A DNA stretch of 6,324 bases from Nitrospinota bacterium (lineage in GTDB: Bacteria; Tectomicrobia; Entotheonellia; J063): positions 1 to 6,324 of the forward strand of contig RFHZ01000804.1 of the NCBI GenBank assembly GCA_003696125.1. Reading direction: 5' to 3'. The translations under genes and the position numbers were made by a program. Numbering within the stretch: the first letter of the stretch is position 1; every line of letters begins with the position of its first letter. Positions 1 to 6,324 of this stretch are shown here, piece by piece. The notes beneath the pieces are model-generated. The model saw nothing but the letters and a program-made list of their open reading frames with translations, was not told the origin of the DNA and made no database searches.

Positions 1-230
1 ACCAGGGTCTCTGGAGTATGGGTACTGATGTGGTTCATCACATCAAAACCGCTCACCGCACCCATCATGATGTCGGTGATCACCAGATCAAAAGATTCCT
101 GTTCCAGGCAGCGGATACCTTCTTCCCCATCCGCAGCGGTCAACACCGTATGGCCTTCGCTCTGCAATACGCGCTGCAGCATGGTACGGAGGCGGGTTTC
201 ATCTTCGATGATCAGAATCTTCCCGGTCAT
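1..230 (-). CDS. Response regulator, N-terminal receiver domain (partial, runs off left edge)
   Basis: A CheY-like receiver of a two-component system, probably the phosphorylation target of the kinase encoded just upstream. The protein begins MTGKILIIEDETRLRTML. Visible receiver hallmarks are the acidic pocket E9-D10 (E11 follows) after the first hydrophobic strand, and the phosphoacceptor D53 in the strand LVITDIMM. The ATG at 230 is preceded by GAGAGGG (on the minus strand) at a suitable distance. The gene starts 31 bases after the kinase stop, so the two are almost certainly cotranscribed. About 76 codons are visible, and the conserved Thr/Ser and Lys of the receiver and any output domain lie outside the window. 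Given the NtrB-like kinase and the sigma-54-like promoter nearby, an NtrC-type regulator with AAA+ and DNA-binding domains is possible. A single-domain or OmpR-type protein cannot be excluded. Confidence 0.9.
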   Translation of the reverse strand, partial: MTGKILIIEDETRLRTMLQRVLQSEGHTVLTAADGEEGIRCLEQESFDLVITDIMMGAVSGFDVMNHISTHTPETL

Positions 231-261
231 GTGTGCTACCCTCTCTGTTGTTCGTCATCTA

Positions 262-1938
262 TCACTGAATCCCTTTGCCTACGATATGGGGGTGAAACTC
301 GGGTAAGAAGATAGAGAAGGTCGTTCCCTGACCCGGCTGGCTTTCCACCTCGATGGTGCCCCCATAGTTGTTGATGATGTTGCGGCAGACGGGAAGCCCC
401 AGTCCCATCCCTTCCCCGCTATCTTTCTTGGTGGAGAAGAAGGGTTCAAAGAGGTGGGGGAGGTGCTCGGCCGGAATCCCGATGCCGGTATCCCCTACCT
501 TGATGATTACCCCCCCTGGCGCCTGGGCCGTCTGGAGGGAGAGGACTCCACCTTGGGGCATCGCCTCCCTGGCATTCTTAATCAGGTTGAGCAAGACCTG
601 TTTCAGGTGATCGCGTGAGGCCCGAATCTCCGGCAGGTTGGGTGCCAGGTCCAGCCGGCATTTCACCTTATGCTCGGCCAGATCCCGTTCGACAAAACGG
701 ATCAGGTGCTGAATCTCTTCGTTGATCCGCAAGGCCCGGATCTCGGTAGAGGGGCGGGCAAAATCGAGCAGTTGCCTGATGATGCGGGCAATCCGCTTGA
801 TCTCTTCCTCGATGATGGCGATGTTCTCTTTGTTCGGATCCTGCTCGGACATGGTTTTATGGATGAGGTGCATGGAGGTATTGATGATGGCCAGGGGATT
901 ATTGACCTCGTGCGCTACCTTGGCGGCCAGTTTTCCGACCGCGGCCAGCTTCTCGTTCTGGATCAGCTGCTCCTGCGTCTCCTTGATCATCTTGTTGGCC
1001 ATCTCGAGCCGATGCTTCTCTTCGGCCAGATGGGTGATATGCTGCCGCAACGCCTCCCGCATCTCTTCGAAACGCCGGGCGAGGTACCCGACCTCGTCCT
1101 GGGCGGTGATGGTGATGGGATGATCGTAGTCCCCCTGGGCCACGGCATTGACACCGTTTACCAGTTGTCGAATCGGTCTGGAGATCAGGCTGGCCAGGAA
1201 GATGGCTTCTCCGGTGCCGAGGATGATGGCCACCAGTCCGAGAAGAACCAGGTTTTGACGAATCTTTTGGATTTCAGCGACTGCCCTGGTCAGGGAAAAG
1301 CCGATCCGTATGGTCCCCCATTTGCGGGCCCCACCCGGGATGAAGAAGGGGATGGCCACATCGTATCCTCTCTCCCCTCCTGGCAGGACGATTTCCTGGA
1401 GGAGAGGCCGATCGGCCTTGATGGCCTGCTGGCTGACCGGGTCCTCGAGCACTTTCCCCTGGTAGTCGCTATGCCCACTGTAGGCCGCCACTTTCCCGTC
1501 GTGCAGGTGGACGATGGCGTAAGCTACTCCGTCTTCGGAGGCGATCTTCTCTACCGTCTGCTCTAATTTAACGAAGTTGTAGGTGAGCAGATACCCCTCG
1601 CTGAGGGCAGCCAGGTTGGTCGCCTGGGAGAAGGCCCGCTTCTGGTACTGCTCCAGGATCATGCGGCGTTGCTGCTTTTCGATGACCACGGTGGTGAGGA
1701 GCATCAGGGAGATCTGCACCAGCACAATCACCCAGGCGAATTTGGTCTTGAGACTTCGCGGGGACACGGCCAGGCGTGAGAAGAGCAGGGGGTTACTCCA
1801 CCAGAGCTTTACAAGCTCTTCCCCTCTCCTCATCCATGCCTTGCCCCTCTTCACCATCCGTTCCCAGGTCCAGGGGCAGGACGGGAGAGCTCCTTCTCTT
1901 ACCGGCAGCAAGGCAAAGAGGTGAACAGGTACCATCAT
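262..1938 (-). CDS. Membrane sensor histidine kinase (HAMP-HisKA-HATPase)
   Basis: A sensor kinase that autophosphorylates on His and passes phosphate to the adjacent receiver protein. Numbered from the ATG at 1938 (558 aa): TM1 at about 67-86, an extracytoplasmic Cache/PAS-like sensor at 87-228, TM2 at 229-252, HAMP at about 251-303, a coiled-coil linker at 290-329, HisKA with H343 in AHEVNNPLAII, and HATPase with N-box N455 (NLIKNAREAM), G1 box DTGIGIP from D483, F box LFEPFF at about 496-501 and G2 box GMGLGL from G510. All catalytic motifs are intact, and the HExxNPL H-box resembles NtrB/AtoS/ZraS-type kinases. The start is uncertain. The frame is open to a GTG at 2022, which lacks a good ribosome site. 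The ATG-ATG at 1938/1935 follows AAAAGGGG, and ATGs at 1857 and 1833 are also possible, the last after AAGAGGGG. All options keep both membrane segments. The ligand is unknown. Control of the neighbouring proteases is only suggested by position. Confidence 0.93.
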   Translation of the reverse strand: MMVPVHLFALLPVREGALPSCPWTWERMVKRGKAWMRRGEELVKLWWSNPLLFSRLAVSPRSLKTKFAWVIVLVQISLMLLTTVVIEKQQRRMILEQYQKRAFSQATNLAALSEGYLLTYNFVKLEQTVEKIASEDGVAYAIVHLHDGKVAAYSGHSDYQGKVLEDPVSQQAIKADRPLLQEIVLPGGERGYDVAIPFFIPGGARKWGTIRIGFSLTRAVAEIQKIRQNLVLLGLVAIILGTGEAIFLASLISRPIRQLVNGVNAVAQGDYDHPITITAQDEVGYLARRFEEMREALRQHITHLAEEKHRLEMANKMIKETQEQLIQNEKLAAVGKLAAKVAHEVNNPLAIINTSMHLIHKTMSEQDPNKENIAIIEEEIKRIARIIRQLLDFARPSTEIRALRINEEIQHLIRFVERDLAEHKVKCRLDLAPNLPEIRASRDHLKQVLLNLIKNAREAMPQGGVLSLQTAQAPGGVIIKVGDTGIGIPAEHLPHLFEPFFSTKKDSGEGMGLGLPVCRNIINNYGGTIEVESQPGQGTTFSIFLPEFHPHIVGKGIQ

Positions 1939-2036
1939 CGATCCCCTTTTCGCTGTTGGAGCTGGTGCTGGTTCCACCAGTTTCCTCCCTCTCTTCTCAT
2001 TATCATGCCTCTTTTCTCTCACCGGATCCCGATATT

Positions 2037-2206: not shown

Positions 2207-4243
2207 CTAGGGTTCGCATTTGGAAAGACTCTCCCCGTTCAGACAGGTATCGATACCCCCTCCGCCGTTGAGCAGATCCACTCCCTCTCCTCCATCAAGG
2301 AAGTCATACCCGTACCCACCGTCCAGCATGTCGTTTCCTGCGCCACCCACCATGACATCGTCGCCGCCCTGGCCGGAGAGCTGATCGTTCCCTTCTCCCC
2401 CGTCCAGGATATCGTTTCCGTATCCACCGCTGAGCACATCGTATCCGGTGCCGCCTTGCAGCATGTCGTTTCCCCCCTGGCCGTCGAGGAAATCATCCCC
2501 TGCGCCGCCGTCGAGGAGATCATCTCCATAGCCGCCTTGCATGATGTCCTGATCGGGGCCTCCCTGCAGGATATCGCTGCCATCACCCCCGCTGAGGAGG
2601 TTGTTTCCTTCTCCCCCGACCAGCACATCGTTACCATAGCCGCCATCCAGGGCATCGTTTCCTGCACCGGCAATGAGCACATCGTTCCCTCCCTGGCCAT
2701 CCAGGAGATCATCCCCGGGACCACCGTCGAGGAAATCGTCTCCATACCCGGCTTCGATGCTATCATCCCCTGCACCCCCGCAGAGAAGATCGTTGCCGTC
2801 TTTGCCCTGGATGATATCGTTTCCTCCAAGACCGACGATGACATCGGTACCAGGGGTTCCGCTCAGGATGTCGTCCCCTTCTGTTCCCATCATCGTCGCG
2901 TACTGCCCGAAACAGACCAGGGGAGCCAGTTGGGTGGCAAAAGCGGCATCGATGAGGCCGGCTCCCTGCAGGGTGCCGGTGACTCCCAGATCGAGGGCCG
3001 TGTCCTGCAGCACCATCCGGATATCGTCGGGAGTCAGGGAAGGGTTAACCCCGAGCAGGAGAGCGACCAGTCCGCTTACATGGGCGGCCGCCTGGCTGGT
3101 CCCGCTGCCCACTCCATATCCGCCCCCCGGATAGGTGGAGAGGACCGGGACTTCACGCGTTCCCCCCGGCGCCACCACATCGACCTCTACTCCCTCCACA
3201 CTATAGGTGGTAATGTTTGCGGTGCTGTCCGTGGCCCCGACCCCGATCGTCTCCGGGTAGCGGGCCGGGTACTTGACCTGCCAGGTACAGGACGGTCCGG
3301 CACCATCTCCACCGCTACCGTCTCCGCCTTCGCTGTCCCCGCCTTCACTATCCCCACCTTCGCTGGTGGCTCCGATGCTGTCCCCCCCTTCACTGGCCGG
3401 GATACCGCAGTCGTAGTTCCCCACCGAAGTGACCATGACCACACCCTTCTGCTGCAACAGTTGGACAATCTGCTGGAGCAGGGGCGAACCCTGGTAGAAG
3501 CCGAGACTCATGTTCACCACCCGGATGGCCGGTTGCTGGTAGACCCAGCTCAACCCGTTGATCAGATCGGAGAGATACCCCCCTCCGGCCTCGTCGAGCA
3601 CGCGGACCGCGTACAGGGTGGCCTGGGGGGCGATGGTGTGGATGATACCGGCCACATGGGTGCCGTGTCCGTTATAATCCATAAAATCCCCTTCCATCCC
3701 TCCTGCCCTTGCATTGTAGCCTCCCACCACCTGGGGACTGAGCTCGGGATGGGTGGCATCGATGCCGGTATCGAGGATGGCGACCTGGACCCCTGCTCCC
3801 TGTATGGCCGGGTCGACCTGATCAAAACCGATCTGGAGCAGATTCCAGGTGTACCCAAACGGGGCCGCATCCACCGGGGTGATGAGTCCCTGGATGCCGT
3901 TGGACAGCGCTTCGGCCTGAATGGTGGGATCGGTTTCGATCGCCTGGACCTCTGGATGGCTCTGCAGCAGGGCAAGGGCTGCCTGTTCCTGTCCAGAGGG
4001 GAGTTGGATCACCACGGCGTTGAGCAGGGGAAGCTGCTGCAGGATGGTGCTCCCACTCTCTGCCACCACCTGCTCCTGCACCGTCTCCGGGGTGCCTGGC
4101 TGGAAGACGACGATGCGTCGCCCGTTTTCTGCCCAGCTCGTCCCGCCAGGCAGGAGAGAGACGAGGAGCAGGAGGCCGAGTACGATCGGCCAGCAGGATT
4201 GCCACCGCTTCCTCCTCCCTGCTGCATGTATGGTGTTACCCAT
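2207..4243 (-). CDS. Subtilase A: secreted S8 protease with RTX calcium-binding C-terminal domain
   Basis: An exported subtilisin-family serine endopeptidase of 678 aa. A signal peptide (hydrophobic core about 19-31, likely cut after A38 in TSWA) is followed by an inhibitor I9-like propeptide (about 42-105) that normally acts as chaperone and inhibitor until autocleavage. The catalytic domain (about 130-435) has D158 (ILDTGID), H193 (NGHGTHVAG), oxyanion Asn N276 (SVGNYD) and nucleophile S383 (GSGTSQAAAHVSG), so it should be active. Residues 284-314 are an SEGGD repeat insert flanked by C279 and C319. Residues about 454-668 form about 24 GGxGxD-type nonapeptides, expected to fold as a Ca-binding beta-roll, capped by a Cys pair (C666, C675). 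The ATG at 4243 follows a perfect AAGGAGG 7 bases upstream. The gene starts 40 bases after the subtilase B stop and is last in the tandem array. RTX repeats with a Sec signal argue against type I secretion. The substrate is unknown. Confidence 0.95.
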   Translation of the reverse strand: MGNTIHAAGRRKRWQSCWPIVLGLLLLVSLLPGGTSWAENGRRIVVFQPGTPETVQEQVVAESGSTILQQLPLLNAVVIQLPSGQEQAALALLQSHPEVQAIETDPTIQAEALSNGIQGLITPVDAAPFGYTWNLLQIGFDQVDPAIQGAGVQVAILDTGIDATHPELSPQVVGGYNARAGGMEGDFMDYNGHGTHVAGIIHTIAPQATLYAVRVLDEAGGGYLSDLINGLSWVYQQPAIRVVNMSLGFYQGSPLLQQIVQLLQQKGVVMVTSVGNYDCGIPASEGGDSIGATSEGGDSEGGDSEGGDGSGGDGAGPSCTWQVKYPARYPETIGVGATDSTANITTYSVEGVEVDVVAPGGTREVPVLSTYPGGGYGVGSGTSQAAAHVSGLVALLLGVNPSLTPDDIRMVLQDTALDLGVTGTLQGAGLIDAAFATQLAPLVCFGQYATMMGTEGDDILSGTPGTDVIVGLGGNDIIQGKDGNDLLCGGAGDDSIEAGYGDDFLDGGPGDDLLDGQGGNDVLIAGAGNDALDGGYGNDVLVGGEGNNLLSGGDGSDILQGGPDQDIMQGGYGDDLLDGGAGDDFLDGQGGNDMLQGGTGYDVLSGGYGNDILDGGEGNDQLSGQGGDDVMVGGAGNDMLDGGYGYDFLDGGEGVDLLNGGGGIDTCLNGESLSKCEP
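2240..2884 (-). repeat. RTX nonapeptide array with 108-bp higher-order period
   Basis: This encodes about 24 tandem nonamers of the GGxGxDxLx type at the C-terminus of subtilase A, ending in the cap IDTCLNGESLSKCE. The motif Gly-Tyr-Gly recurs at exact 36-residue spacing (Y500, Y536, Y572, Y608, Y644), so four nonamers form one higher-order unit of 108 bp. Units starting at 500 and 572 share YGDD and LDGQGGND. Those at 536 and 608 share YGND and GGEGN, suggesting a 72-residue ancestral duplication. Each pair of nonamers is expected to make one Ca-binding beta-roll turn. Confidence 0.9.
3302..3394 (-). repeat. SEGGD tandem repeat in the catalytic-domain loop of subtilase A
   Basis: 15-bp units encode SEGGD: one copy, a degenerate copy (SIGAT), three more copies, then GSGGD and GAG. 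The tract is more degenerate than the one in subtilase C. It sits between the oxyanion Asn N276 and the conserved segment KYPARYPETI, with C279 before and C319 after, which could staple the loop with a disulfide. Confidence 0.9.
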
Positions 4244-4250
4244 GATCTTT

Positions 4251-4257
4251 CCTCCTT
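4251..4257 (-). promoter_or_regulatory. Ribosome binding site of subtilase A
   Basis: AAGGAGG on the minus strand, 7 bases before the ATG at 4243. It is a full Shine-Dalgarno match and fixes the start. The 40-base gap to subtilase B leaves little room for a separate promoter. Confidence 0.9.
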
Positions 4258-4283
4258 CTTTCCCTTTGTTTCCCTGTTTATCT

Positions 4284-5699
4284 TTACCAGCGCCCGGCCT
4301 GTCGTACCGCCCGCACTGCGTTAATGAGCCCGGCTCCCTGCGCTTCCCAGGGCTCGCCCAGATCGATGGCCGTTTCCTGCAGGATCTGCCGCACCTCCTG
4401 CGGGGTCAGATCCGGATTCACCTGGAGCATGAGGGCGACCACTCCGCTCACATGCGCAGCAGCCTGGCTGGTGCCGCTCCCCCATCCATAGCCCCCCAGG
4501 AGATCGGTGGAGAAGATCGGGTCGGTATGGGTTCCTCCAGGGGCCACCACATCGACCTCTACCCCCCGGATGCTGTACGGGGCGATGCGGGCAGAGATGT
4601 CGGTGGCACCCACGGCGATCGTCTCCGGGTAGCGGGCCGGATATTTGACCTGCTCCAGCGCGGTGCAGCCGCCACCGCTGGCCGCGCCTTCGCCGGCCGC
4701 GCCTTCGCCGGCCGCACCCTCTCCACTGGCACATCCGGTACCGGCTGCGCCCTCACCGGCCGCGCCCTCGCCGGCGGCGCCTTCGCCGGCGGCGCCTTCC
4801 CCACTGGCACCAGTCGTATCGTAATTGCCGGCCGCAGCGACCATGACCACCCCCTCGGCATCGAGGAGCCTGACGACCCGGTGAAGCAGGAAGCTGTCGG
4901 TAGAGAACCCCAGGCTCATGTTGAGCACGATCCGTTCTGCTGGATGGTTACGGGCAAATTTCAAGAGCCGGGTTAACCCCTGGATCAGATCAGACAGGTA
5001 TCCTCCTCCGGCATCGTCCAGCACTTTGATCACGTGTAGCTTGGCACGGGGAGCAATACCCCGGAAATAGGGGTCTTGCAGACTGGCGGCAATGATGCCA
5101 GCAATGTGGGTACCATGCCCGTTGCGATCTACCCAGTCCTGTGGGTCTTCTCCGGCCCGGGCATTGTAGAGGTAGTTGGTCGGTTCCACAAAGGCAGGAT
5201 GGCTCAGGTCAACGCCTGTGTCCAGGATGCCGATGTGGATACCCTGCCCTTTATGCCCGTCCGGCGAGAGCCGGTTCAGAACGATCTGCTCCAGATTCCA
5301 CGGGTACCCTGCTGCGACCTCGGCTGGATCGACCGGGGTGATGAAACTCCCCTGGATCCCTCCACTCAGGGCCTGGGCGGCAATGGAAGCATCGGTTTCG
5401 ATCTCTACAACCTCCGGAGAGCTCTGGAGCGAGGCCAGAGCCGCCTCTTCCCCTCCGCGAGGGAGCCGGATCACCACGGCATCGACAAGCGAGATATGGG
5501 CCAGGAGCCTGCTGCCGCTTGCGGCGATGATCTGCTCCTGCACCTCCTCTGGTGTGCCTTCCTGGAAGACGACGATGCGCCGCAGGTTCCCTGCCCAGGC
5601 CATTTGTCCTCCCAGCAGGAAGAGCAACACCAGGAAGAGGGAGAGCAGAGTCCAGAAGCTACTGCGCTTTCCCTCGAGTCTCCCTTTTTTCCTCTGCAT
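4284..5699 (-). CDS. Subtilase B: secreted S8 serine protease with GEGAA repeat loop
   Basis: An exported subtilisin-family protease of 471 aa, paralogous to subtilases A and C. The signal peptide has a strong hydrophobic core at about 15-30 and a likely cut after A36 (QMAWA). The I9-like propeptide spans about 40-104. The catalytic residues are D160 (GILDTGVD), H195 (NGHGTHIAG), oxyanion N292 (AAGNYD) and S411 (GSGTSQAAAHVSG), so the enzyme looks complete. It ends soon after the catalytic domain, with no RTX extension. Residues 300-340 hold seven GEGAA pentapeptides in a 4+3 arrangement split by GTGCAS, with C323 in the middle and C345 after, at the same loop that carries SEGGD in the paralogs. 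The start at 5699 has GGGAGG upstream. The gene begins 32 bases after the stop of subtilase C, indicating an operon. It is probably secreted and self-activating, with unknown substrate. Confidence 0.95.
   Translation of the reverse strand: MQRKKGRLEGKRSSFWTLLSLFLVLLFLLGGQMAWAGNLRRIVVFQEGTPEEVQEQIIAASGSRLLAHISLVDAVVIRLPRGGEEAALASLQSSPEVVEIETDASIAAQALSGGIQGSFITPVDPAEVAAGYPWNLEQIVLNRLSPDGHKGQGIHIGILDTGVDLSHPAFVEPTNYLYNARAGEDPQDWVDRNGHGTHIAGIIAASLQDPYFRGIAPRAKLHVIKVLDDAGGGYLSDLIQGLTRLLKFARNHPAERIVLNMSLGFSTDSFLLHRVVRLLDAEGVVMVAAAGNYDTTGASGEGAAGEGAAGEGAAGEGAAGTGCASGEGAAGEGAAGEGAASGGGCTALEQVKYPARYPETIAVGATDISARIAPYSIRGVEVDVVAPGGTHTDPIFSTDLLGGYGWGSGTSQAAAHVSGVVALMLQVNPDLTPQEVRQILQETAIDLGEPWEAQGAGLINAVRAVRQAGRW
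4326..4415 (-). repeat. 90-bp block nearly identical to 5771-5860 (B copy)
   Basis: This block encodes LTPQEVRQILQETAIDLGE and the WEAQGAGL segment near the C-terminus of subtilase B. Aligned with 5771-5860 it differs at one base (T at 4374, C at 5819). Flanking coding sequence of the two genes is clearly more divergent. Confidence 0.9.
4680..4802 (-). repeat. GEGAA tandem repeat in the catalytic-domain loop of subtilase B
   Basis: Seven 15-bp units encode GEGAA, four then three, separated by an 18-bp interruption encoding GTGCAS. The units share the core GAAGGC with the SEGGD units of the neighbouring genes and occupy the same loop, suggesting a common ancestral minisatellite that drifted to a different peptide. 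Confidence 0.92.
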
Positions 5700-5706
5700 C
5701 TTCCTT

Positions 5707-5711
5707 CCTCC
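5707..5711 (-). promoter_or_regulatory. Ribosome binding site of subtilase B
   Basis: GGAGG on the minus strand, 7 bases before the ATG at 5699, within the purine-rich 32-base spacer after subtilase C. No terminator-like hairpin is visible in the spacer, consistent with cotranscription. Confidence 0.85.
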
Positions 5712-5731
5712 CTTTGTCCCTAGGTACTGTA

Positions 5732-6324
5732 TCAGTGTTTGGCCTCATCCACCGCCCATTCGGTATCGACGAGCCCGGCTCCCTGCGCTTCCCAGGGCTC
5801 GCCCAGATCGATGGCCGTCTCCTGCAGGATCTGCCGCACCTCCTGCGGGGTCAGATCCGGGTTTGCATCCAGCAGGAGGGCGACCAGCCCGCTCACATGC
5901 GCCGTGGCCTGGCTGGTCCCGCTGGCCAGCCCATAACCGCTGTTCAGGTTGGTGGAGATGACCGGCATCTCCCCGCTCCCCCCGGGAGCCACCACATCCA
6001 CGGCCAGGCCTTCCACGCTGTACGAGGCGATATTCCCCGTCTCATCGGTGGCACCCACCGCAATCGTCTCCGGGTACTGGGCCGGGTATTTCACCTGCCA
6101 GGTGCAGCCGGAACTGCTGTCGCCGCCTTCACTGTCCCCGCCTTCACTGTCGCCGCCTTCACTGTCCCCGCCTTCACTATCTCCCCCTTCACTGGCCGGG
6201 ATGGTGCAGTCGTAGTTGCCGACCGAGGCGACCATGATTACACCCTGCTGCTCGAGCCACTGGATGACCTGGTGGAGGGGGGTGCTCCGCTGGTAGCAGC
6301 CGTGGCTCATGTTCACCACCCGGA
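5732..6324 (-). CDS. Subtilase C: S8 serine protease with SEGGD repeat loop (partial, N-terminus outside window)
   Basis: The C-terminal 196 residues of a third tandem subtilase. The frame is open to the right edge and the first visible residues RVVNMSHG align with RVVNMSLG inside subtilase A, so the signal peptide, propeptide and catalytic Asp and His lie beyond the window. Numbered from the first visible codon, the oxyanion Asn is N36 (SVGNYDC) and the nucleophile is S137 (SGTSQATAHVSG). Five perfect SEGGD repeats occupy residues 44-68, bracketed by C39 and C73. The protein ends soon after the catalytic domain (DEAKH), without RTX repeats. It resembles subtilase A around the loop (NYDC, IPASEGGDS, CTWQVKYPA) but subtilase B at the C-terminal end (LTPQEVRQILQETAIDLGE), so it is a mosaic. 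MSHGC replaces the MSLGF of A and B, with an extra Cys. Confidence 0.93.
   Translation of the reverse strand, partial: RVVNMSHGCYQRSTPLHQVIQWLEQQGVIMVASVGNYDCTIPASEGGDSEGGDSEGGDSEGGDSEGGDSSSGCTWQVKYPAQYPETIAVGATDETGNIASYSVEGLAVDVVAPGGSGEMPVISTNLNSGYGLASGTSQATAHVSGLVALLLDANPDLTPQEVRQILQETAIDLGEPWEAQGAGLVDTEWAVDEAKH
5771..5860 (-). repeat. 90-bp block nearly identical to 4326-4415 (C copy)
   Basis: The partner of 4326-4415, with 89 of 90 bases matching at an offset of 1445. It lies at the C-terminal end of subtilase C. Just outside, the paralogs drop to roughly 80% or less, as expected from a recent local gene conversion tract. Confidence 0.9.
6119..6193 (-). repeat. SEGGD tandem repeat in subtilase C (15-bp units, 30-bp dimers)
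   Basis: Five consecutive 15-bp units encode SEGGD. The third base of a Gly codon alternates C/G, giving a 30-bp dimer: 6121-6150 and 6151-6180 match at 29 of 30 bases. This is the most homogeneous of the three tracts, suggesting recent expansion by slippage or unequal crossing over in whole 15- or 30-bp steps, which keeps the frame. Confidence 0.95.

Follow-up and report, generated by a model that had tools for sequence, protein, structure and literature searches.

Sequence comparisons indicate that the subtilisin-like (S8) proteases of a Nitrospinota bacterium carry, directly after the oxyanion-hole Asn of their catalytic domain, tandem pentapeptide arrays whose peptide is old and kept by purifying selection, with unit number changing slowly. 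The proteases form a probably secreted, subtilisin-like family in which these position-specific arrays appear to be a lineage-specific insertion. The best explanation, to which we give a probability of roughly 45%, is that by analogy with known subtilases the arrays would form a flexible Gly/Glu lip, flanked by Cys in most copies, next to the S1/S1′ sites, gating the substrates of secreted nutritional proteases.

The window (the whole stretch of 6,324 nucleotides analysed here, corresponding to contig C200) belongs to an assembly of 4.18 Mb in 990 contigs (genome G000). All its features lie on the minus strand, where the reading order is the 3′ part of subtilase C (5732..6322, clipped at the contig end), subtilase B (4284..5699), subtilase A (2207..4243), a co-oriented sensor histidine kinase downstream of A (262..2022; sCache-HAMP-HisKA-HATPase in Pfam) and the start of a response-regulator receiver domain (1..232). 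Subtilase A combines a putative signal peptide, recognized by eye, with an N-terminal prodomain (PF22148), an S8 catalytic domain (PF00082, 5e-49) and C-terminal RTX (GGxGxDxxx) repeats. The latter (window positions 2239-2900; nine PF00353 stretches, the best at 606-640) were matched in A and in neither B nor C, and A is alone among the complete paralogues in having them. B consists of a putative signal peptide (also by eye), a prodomain-like region and the catalytic domain (PF00082, 4e-50), and the C fragment also matches PF00082 (6e-33). All three PF00082 scores (A 167.5, B 171.3 and C 114.9 bits) exceed the gathering score of 21.8 bits. The Asp/His/Ser triad and the oxyanion Asn are aligned in A and B (motifs DTG, NGHGTH, SGTSQ and GN), the 5′ part of C being on another contig. 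In A, the oxyanion Asn codon (3416..3418) falls in a column that is invariant across an alignment of 54 S8 sequences, and the aligned catalytic Ser codon (SGTSQ) is at 3095..3097. Among the S8 subfamily models of NCBIfam, the best match was the mycosin model TIGR03921. Its scores (127.8, 132.2 for B, and 98 bits) are far under the curated cut-off of 278.75, and we rejected a mycosin identity for the three proteins.

The left end of the window overlaps the right end of contig C192 over 84 nt (99% identity), where the response regulator continues, and its right end overlaps the left end of contig C231 over about 169 nt (97%). Because of this second overlap, C and the first fragment of C231, which holds its 5′ part, are almost certainly the same gene. 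The overlap (window 6260-6324 versus L012:1-169) contains five amino-acid differences, all at the extreme end of the window, and no synonymous one, the pattern expected of poor contig-end sequence or mixed strains. Together, the two overlaps suggest a single locus in the order subtilases C231d, c and b, then C, B and A, the histidine kinase, a response regulator/HD-GYP protein, two SBP_bac_5 proteins and a further subtilase.

In A, B and C alike, the stretch from the oxyanion-hole Asn (GN-Y-D) to the segment KYPA[RQ]YPETI contains an array of in-frame 15-bp (five-residue) units, as the preliminary description of this DNA had reported. The array of A reads SEGGD SIGAT SEGGD SEGGD SEGGD (3320..3394) and is followed by a degenerate GSGGD unit (3305..3319); that of B is (GEGAA)4 GTGCAS (GEGAA)3 (4680..4802) and that of C is (SEGGD)5 (6119..6193). 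All three were delimited from the sequence and detected by Tandem Repeats Finder (scores 64, 102 and 121-135), and a 30-bp higher-order period occurs in the arrays of C and of paralogue C458. By comparison, a further 338 kb of the genome, in 80 contigs, contains only two period-15 arrays, of about two copies each and with scores of 50 and 60. Moreover, 33 of the 34 genome-wide matches to the pattern EG[GA][D/A/E]-x-EG[GA][D/A/E] are in the array-bearing S8 subtilases, and the reversed control had none; the arrays are thus not due to chance. Except in one SIGAT unit and at their short edges, the loops consist of G, A, S, E and D only; large hydrophobic residues and basic ones are nearly absent. 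Arrays of another kind, with 7-bp units (TTACTCA/AGTAATG), were seen on several contigs of this genome (L167:4432-4492, L202:1635-1674, L241:4099-4213 and L184:3193-3222).

The arrays extend beyond the three genes first described. The genome has 11 S8 domain matches on five contigs, and every S8 protease whose sequence covers the oxyanion loop carries a pentapeptide array there; counting C and the first C231 fragment as one, this makes at least eight distinct genes. The SEGGD type is found in A, C and C231c, the GEGAA type in B, C231b, C231d and C192, and the SEGAD type in C692 and C458, so the units are not paralogue-specific as had been proposed but are carried by further paralogues on other contigs. 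Unit numbers do differ between paralogues (4+3, 3+3, 2+2; 1+3; 5; 4+3). With few exceptions, the units of this genome do retain Glu-Gly, whereas the supposedly shared GAAGGC core is not strict, since GAG, GGG, GGT and GGA also occur. Independent contigs carry the same loops written in different synonymous codons, which makes an assembly artefact an unlikely source of the arrays and answers an objection raised at the outset.

The ends of contigs C692 and C458 (L014:1-213 and L015:7468-7593) overlap at about 95% identity apart from an in-frame difference of 87 nt, corresponding to one sub-array and the spacer SRFCVSTAA. From their sequences the two may be one gene, and the difference could reflect strain variation, assembly collapse or true paralogy, possibly representing a natural array-length variant. 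The suggestion that length can change without loss of frame thus stands for whole units; it does not for one paralogue (C231:4089-5546, i.e., L012:4089-5546), which is frameshifted within its GEGAA array, leaving the C-terminal half in another frame, and is either a pseudogene or an assembly error.

A loop of this kind is unusual among S8 proteases. It spans 33-60 residues after the oxyanion Asn in the array family. In the S8 proteases compared with it, which came from more than 50 genomes including members of the same class, the usual cellular length is 7-16; only two viral proteins (32-34 residues, without repeats) and a distant protein whose alignment is doubtful depart from it. A DNA pattern scan of GTDB for three SEG[GA]D units returned 17 contigs outside this genome, none with the units in an S8 protease; they were in assorted linkers, tails or frames without recognizable protein. 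Protein B had no match in the same contig collection. Outside the genome, our S8 search found an array at this point only in G004, one of the class's four other genomes and a member of another family, where a subtilase 43% identical carries a Cys-flanked array of five SGGDD units at the same point. A profile search of 386 genomes likewise retrieved full family members from these two genomes only, and a looser four-unit pattern matched 11 of the 386, with none of the inspected matches outside the two genomes in a subtilase. Viral contigs yielded only two distant S8 matches. A literature search, with subscription papers mostly outside its reach, found no report of such arrays in subtilase catalytic domains. 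A NuoL-like protein (L104, genome G213), with GGGAL arrays inserted at two places, likewise has short repeats within a conserved enzyme.

Units of the same type differ at third codon positions only, i.e., synonymously, with 14 DNA forms among 21 copies of GEGAA, nine among 15 of SEGGD and five among 14 of SEGAD (a few copies being counted twice owing to contig overlaps). The copies were picked by their peptide, which makes this statement circular on its own, and the comparison of paralogues is the test that counts. In four pairs of the same type (B/C231b, A/C231c, B/C192 and B/C231d), the loops are 91-94% identical versus 51-68% for the surrounding enzyme, a loop figure somewhat inflated by the possibility of aligning repeats in any register, and the share of synonymous differences is alike (40-55%). 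For B/C231b, 50 of 53 loop positions are identical versus 223 of 397 outside (p = 7e-9) at equal synonymous divergence (20/50 in the loop, 104/217 outside); for A/C231c, the values are 37/40 and 224/393 (p = 4e-6). For C231b/C192, one more same-type pair, the loop is 82% identical, still above its flank. The interrupting spacers SIGAT and GTGCAS, which are common to paralogues about 50% identical elsewhere, point in the same direction and are free of the register problem. Loops more identical than their flanks at equal synonymous divergence argue for an old peptide under purifying selection. Recent gene conversion or slippage would lower synonymous differences; we saw no such lowering and rejected both. 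We also considered, and rejected, the idea that the array serves to recombine protease halves: identities of the N- and C-terminal halves show no clear exchange, in a paralogue tree that is unresolved. Some codons are fixed within units: all 21 copies of GEGAA (window 4680-4802 and paralogue arrays) have GCC as their fifth codon while the fourth, also Ala, varies (GCG 12, GCA 5, GCC 4; p = 5e-8), the Gly codon of SEGAD is GGG in 14 of 14 and the Glu codon of SEGGD is GAA in 15 of 15, which may reflect some constraint at the DNA level or shared ancestry.

AlphaFold2 models of A (SEGGD) and B (GEGAA) have overall pLDDT values of 89 and 87, with a core above 90 and an array below 50. The model of A adopts the subtilisin fold (Foldseek E-value 5e-32; by VIA-align, Z 48.2 and an rmsd of 2.2 across 342 residues), and its closest relatives among the structure matches listed are pro-subtilisin E, at Z 48, and pro-Tk-subtilisin, at Z 47. 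Plasmodium SUB1, discussed below, does not appear in the 50 matches listed, an absence from which we draw no conclusion. The disordered array starts five residues past the oxyanion Asn in A and three in B, in agreement with the earlier proposal that it adjoins the active site. The loop is therefore not far from the cleft, and it is also disordered in the models, where low pLDDT denotes flexibility. A Cys pair brackets the insertion in A (an aligned closing Cys at 3287..3289 and a possible partner at 3407-3409), C (6206-6208 and 6104-6106), C231c and the G004 protein. The pair has moved into the array in B (4731-4733 within the array, 4665-4667 past it), C231b and C692, and the first loop of C458 has one Cys. 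Judging from these positions, the bracketing cysteines probably form a disulphide in most copies.

Subtilisins of MEROPS family S8A, such as subtilisin E/BPN′ and Tk-subtilisin, share the fold, triad, oxyanion Asn and prodomain with the array family but have a short turn where the latter has 33-60 repetitive residues. The segment containing Asn155 of subtilisins contributes to the P1 cleft (PMC3168465). In Plasmodium SUB1 (PfSUB1), loop 2 is an insertion at the same point as the arrays; it starts right after the oxyanion Asn, is flexible and tied by Cys521-Cys534, borders S1/S′ and lines the S′ pocket opposite the residues preceding the catalytic Ser, and breaking its disulphide lowers activity (PMC4024747). 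It differs in having 12 residues between its cysteines, the first immediately past the Asn, in not being described as repetitive and in its unrelated lineage. The secreted subtilase AprV2 of Dichelobacter nodosus also has a disulphide-tethered extended loop beside the cleft, I2, which acts as an exosite (PMC2991261), although this is another loop (residues 82-102) and is ordered in the crystal. C458 bears a second array, in the loop preceding the catalytic Ser, which corresponds to the one opposite PfSUB1 loop 2.

The PfSUB1 analogy, this second array and the selection on the peptide lead us to prefer a flexible lip. The array would replace the 7-16 residue turn after the oxyanion Asn with a long flexible Gly/Glu-rich strand, tethered in most copies by the putative disulphide. 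This strand may act as a mobile lip that resists proteases and overhangs the cleft on its S1/S1′ side; the lip's length would shift in five-residue steps over evolutionary time, and it could limit or guide substrate entry as a gate or exosite. The signal peptides, the prodomain and the neighbouring two-component genes and peptide-type family 5 solute-binding proteins (SBP_bac_5 genes adjoin family members in both genomes, including the G004 array subtilase) suggest secreted proteases feeding peptide uptake, i.e., a nutritional role. Against a gate, GEGAA and SEGGD differ in charge, making one common contact surface unlikely, and the disulphide is not uniform, given the single Cys in the first loop of C458 and the location of one of the two in B inside the array. 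Furthermore, low pLDDT does not tell where the loop points.

The strongest rival is a protease-resistant spacer that merely fills a surface gap uncut by its own or sister proteases, selection bearing on composition and not on contacts. The restricted composition and modelled disorder agree with it, as does a design reminiscent of known flexible linkers such as the glycine-rich linker of M13 G3P, a weak match with repeated Gly/Glu/Ser pentapeptides which, however, joins domains whereas the subtilase arrays sit inside a catalytic domain. We consider it rather unlikely, as composition alone leaves identical pentapeptides and spacers in half-identical paralogues unexplained and gives no reason for so long a loop in place of a short turn. 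A bolder extension of the preferred lip strikes us as quite improbable: both lips of the cleft, past the oxyanion Asn and ahead of the catalytic Ser, would bear a selectable, modular polymer, and the tandem sister proteases of one bacterium would differ in array chemistry and length, each for different protein substrates (a repeat-length-tuned enzyme family). Less probable again, and already disfavoured, is a neutral minisatellite tolerated in a surface loop and growing by slippage. Copy number varies among paralogues, C and C458 have their 30-bp period, and the SGGDD units of G004 are identical in DNA (four copies, one variant), from which the expansion in that genome is recent; yet the freely varying minisatellite initially envisaged conflicts with the many DNA variants of GEGAA and SEGGD that leave the amino acids unchanged, with a loop that is the most conserved stretch between paralogues, and with the lack of such arrays elsewhere in the genome (pattern search; repeat scan of 338 kb). 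We give still less credit to a redox switch, in which a labile disulphide near the oxyanion Asn would turn activity on, as reported for PfSUB1: the loop and Cys pair are similarly placed (first Cys three residues past the Asn in A and C, two in G004; PMC4024747), but B, C231b and C192 have no Cys among the first loop residues, C458 has one, and nothing known points to redox change for a secreted enzyme. Least probable is calcium binding, also put forward initially, by a module like RTX, for although SEGGD, SEGAD and SGGDD are acidic and A has true RTX repeats, the 21 GEGAA copies have one Glu and no Asp per unit, the pentapeptide spacing is not that of GGxGxDxxx nonapeptides and the models contain no folded module.

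Low-complexity repeats are usually regarded as filler between domains. Here they belong to a catalytic domain, begin within a few residues of the oxyanion hole and are predicted to be disordered, yet they are the best-conserved stretch between sister enzymes, which suggests that conserved disordered repeats matter for substrate handling by these proteases. The subtilisin fold is heavily used in industry; if the gate reading is true, unit type and number would be a simple natural handle on substrate access in this fold, and the arrays would offer a case for directly testing selection on a disordered active-site loop.
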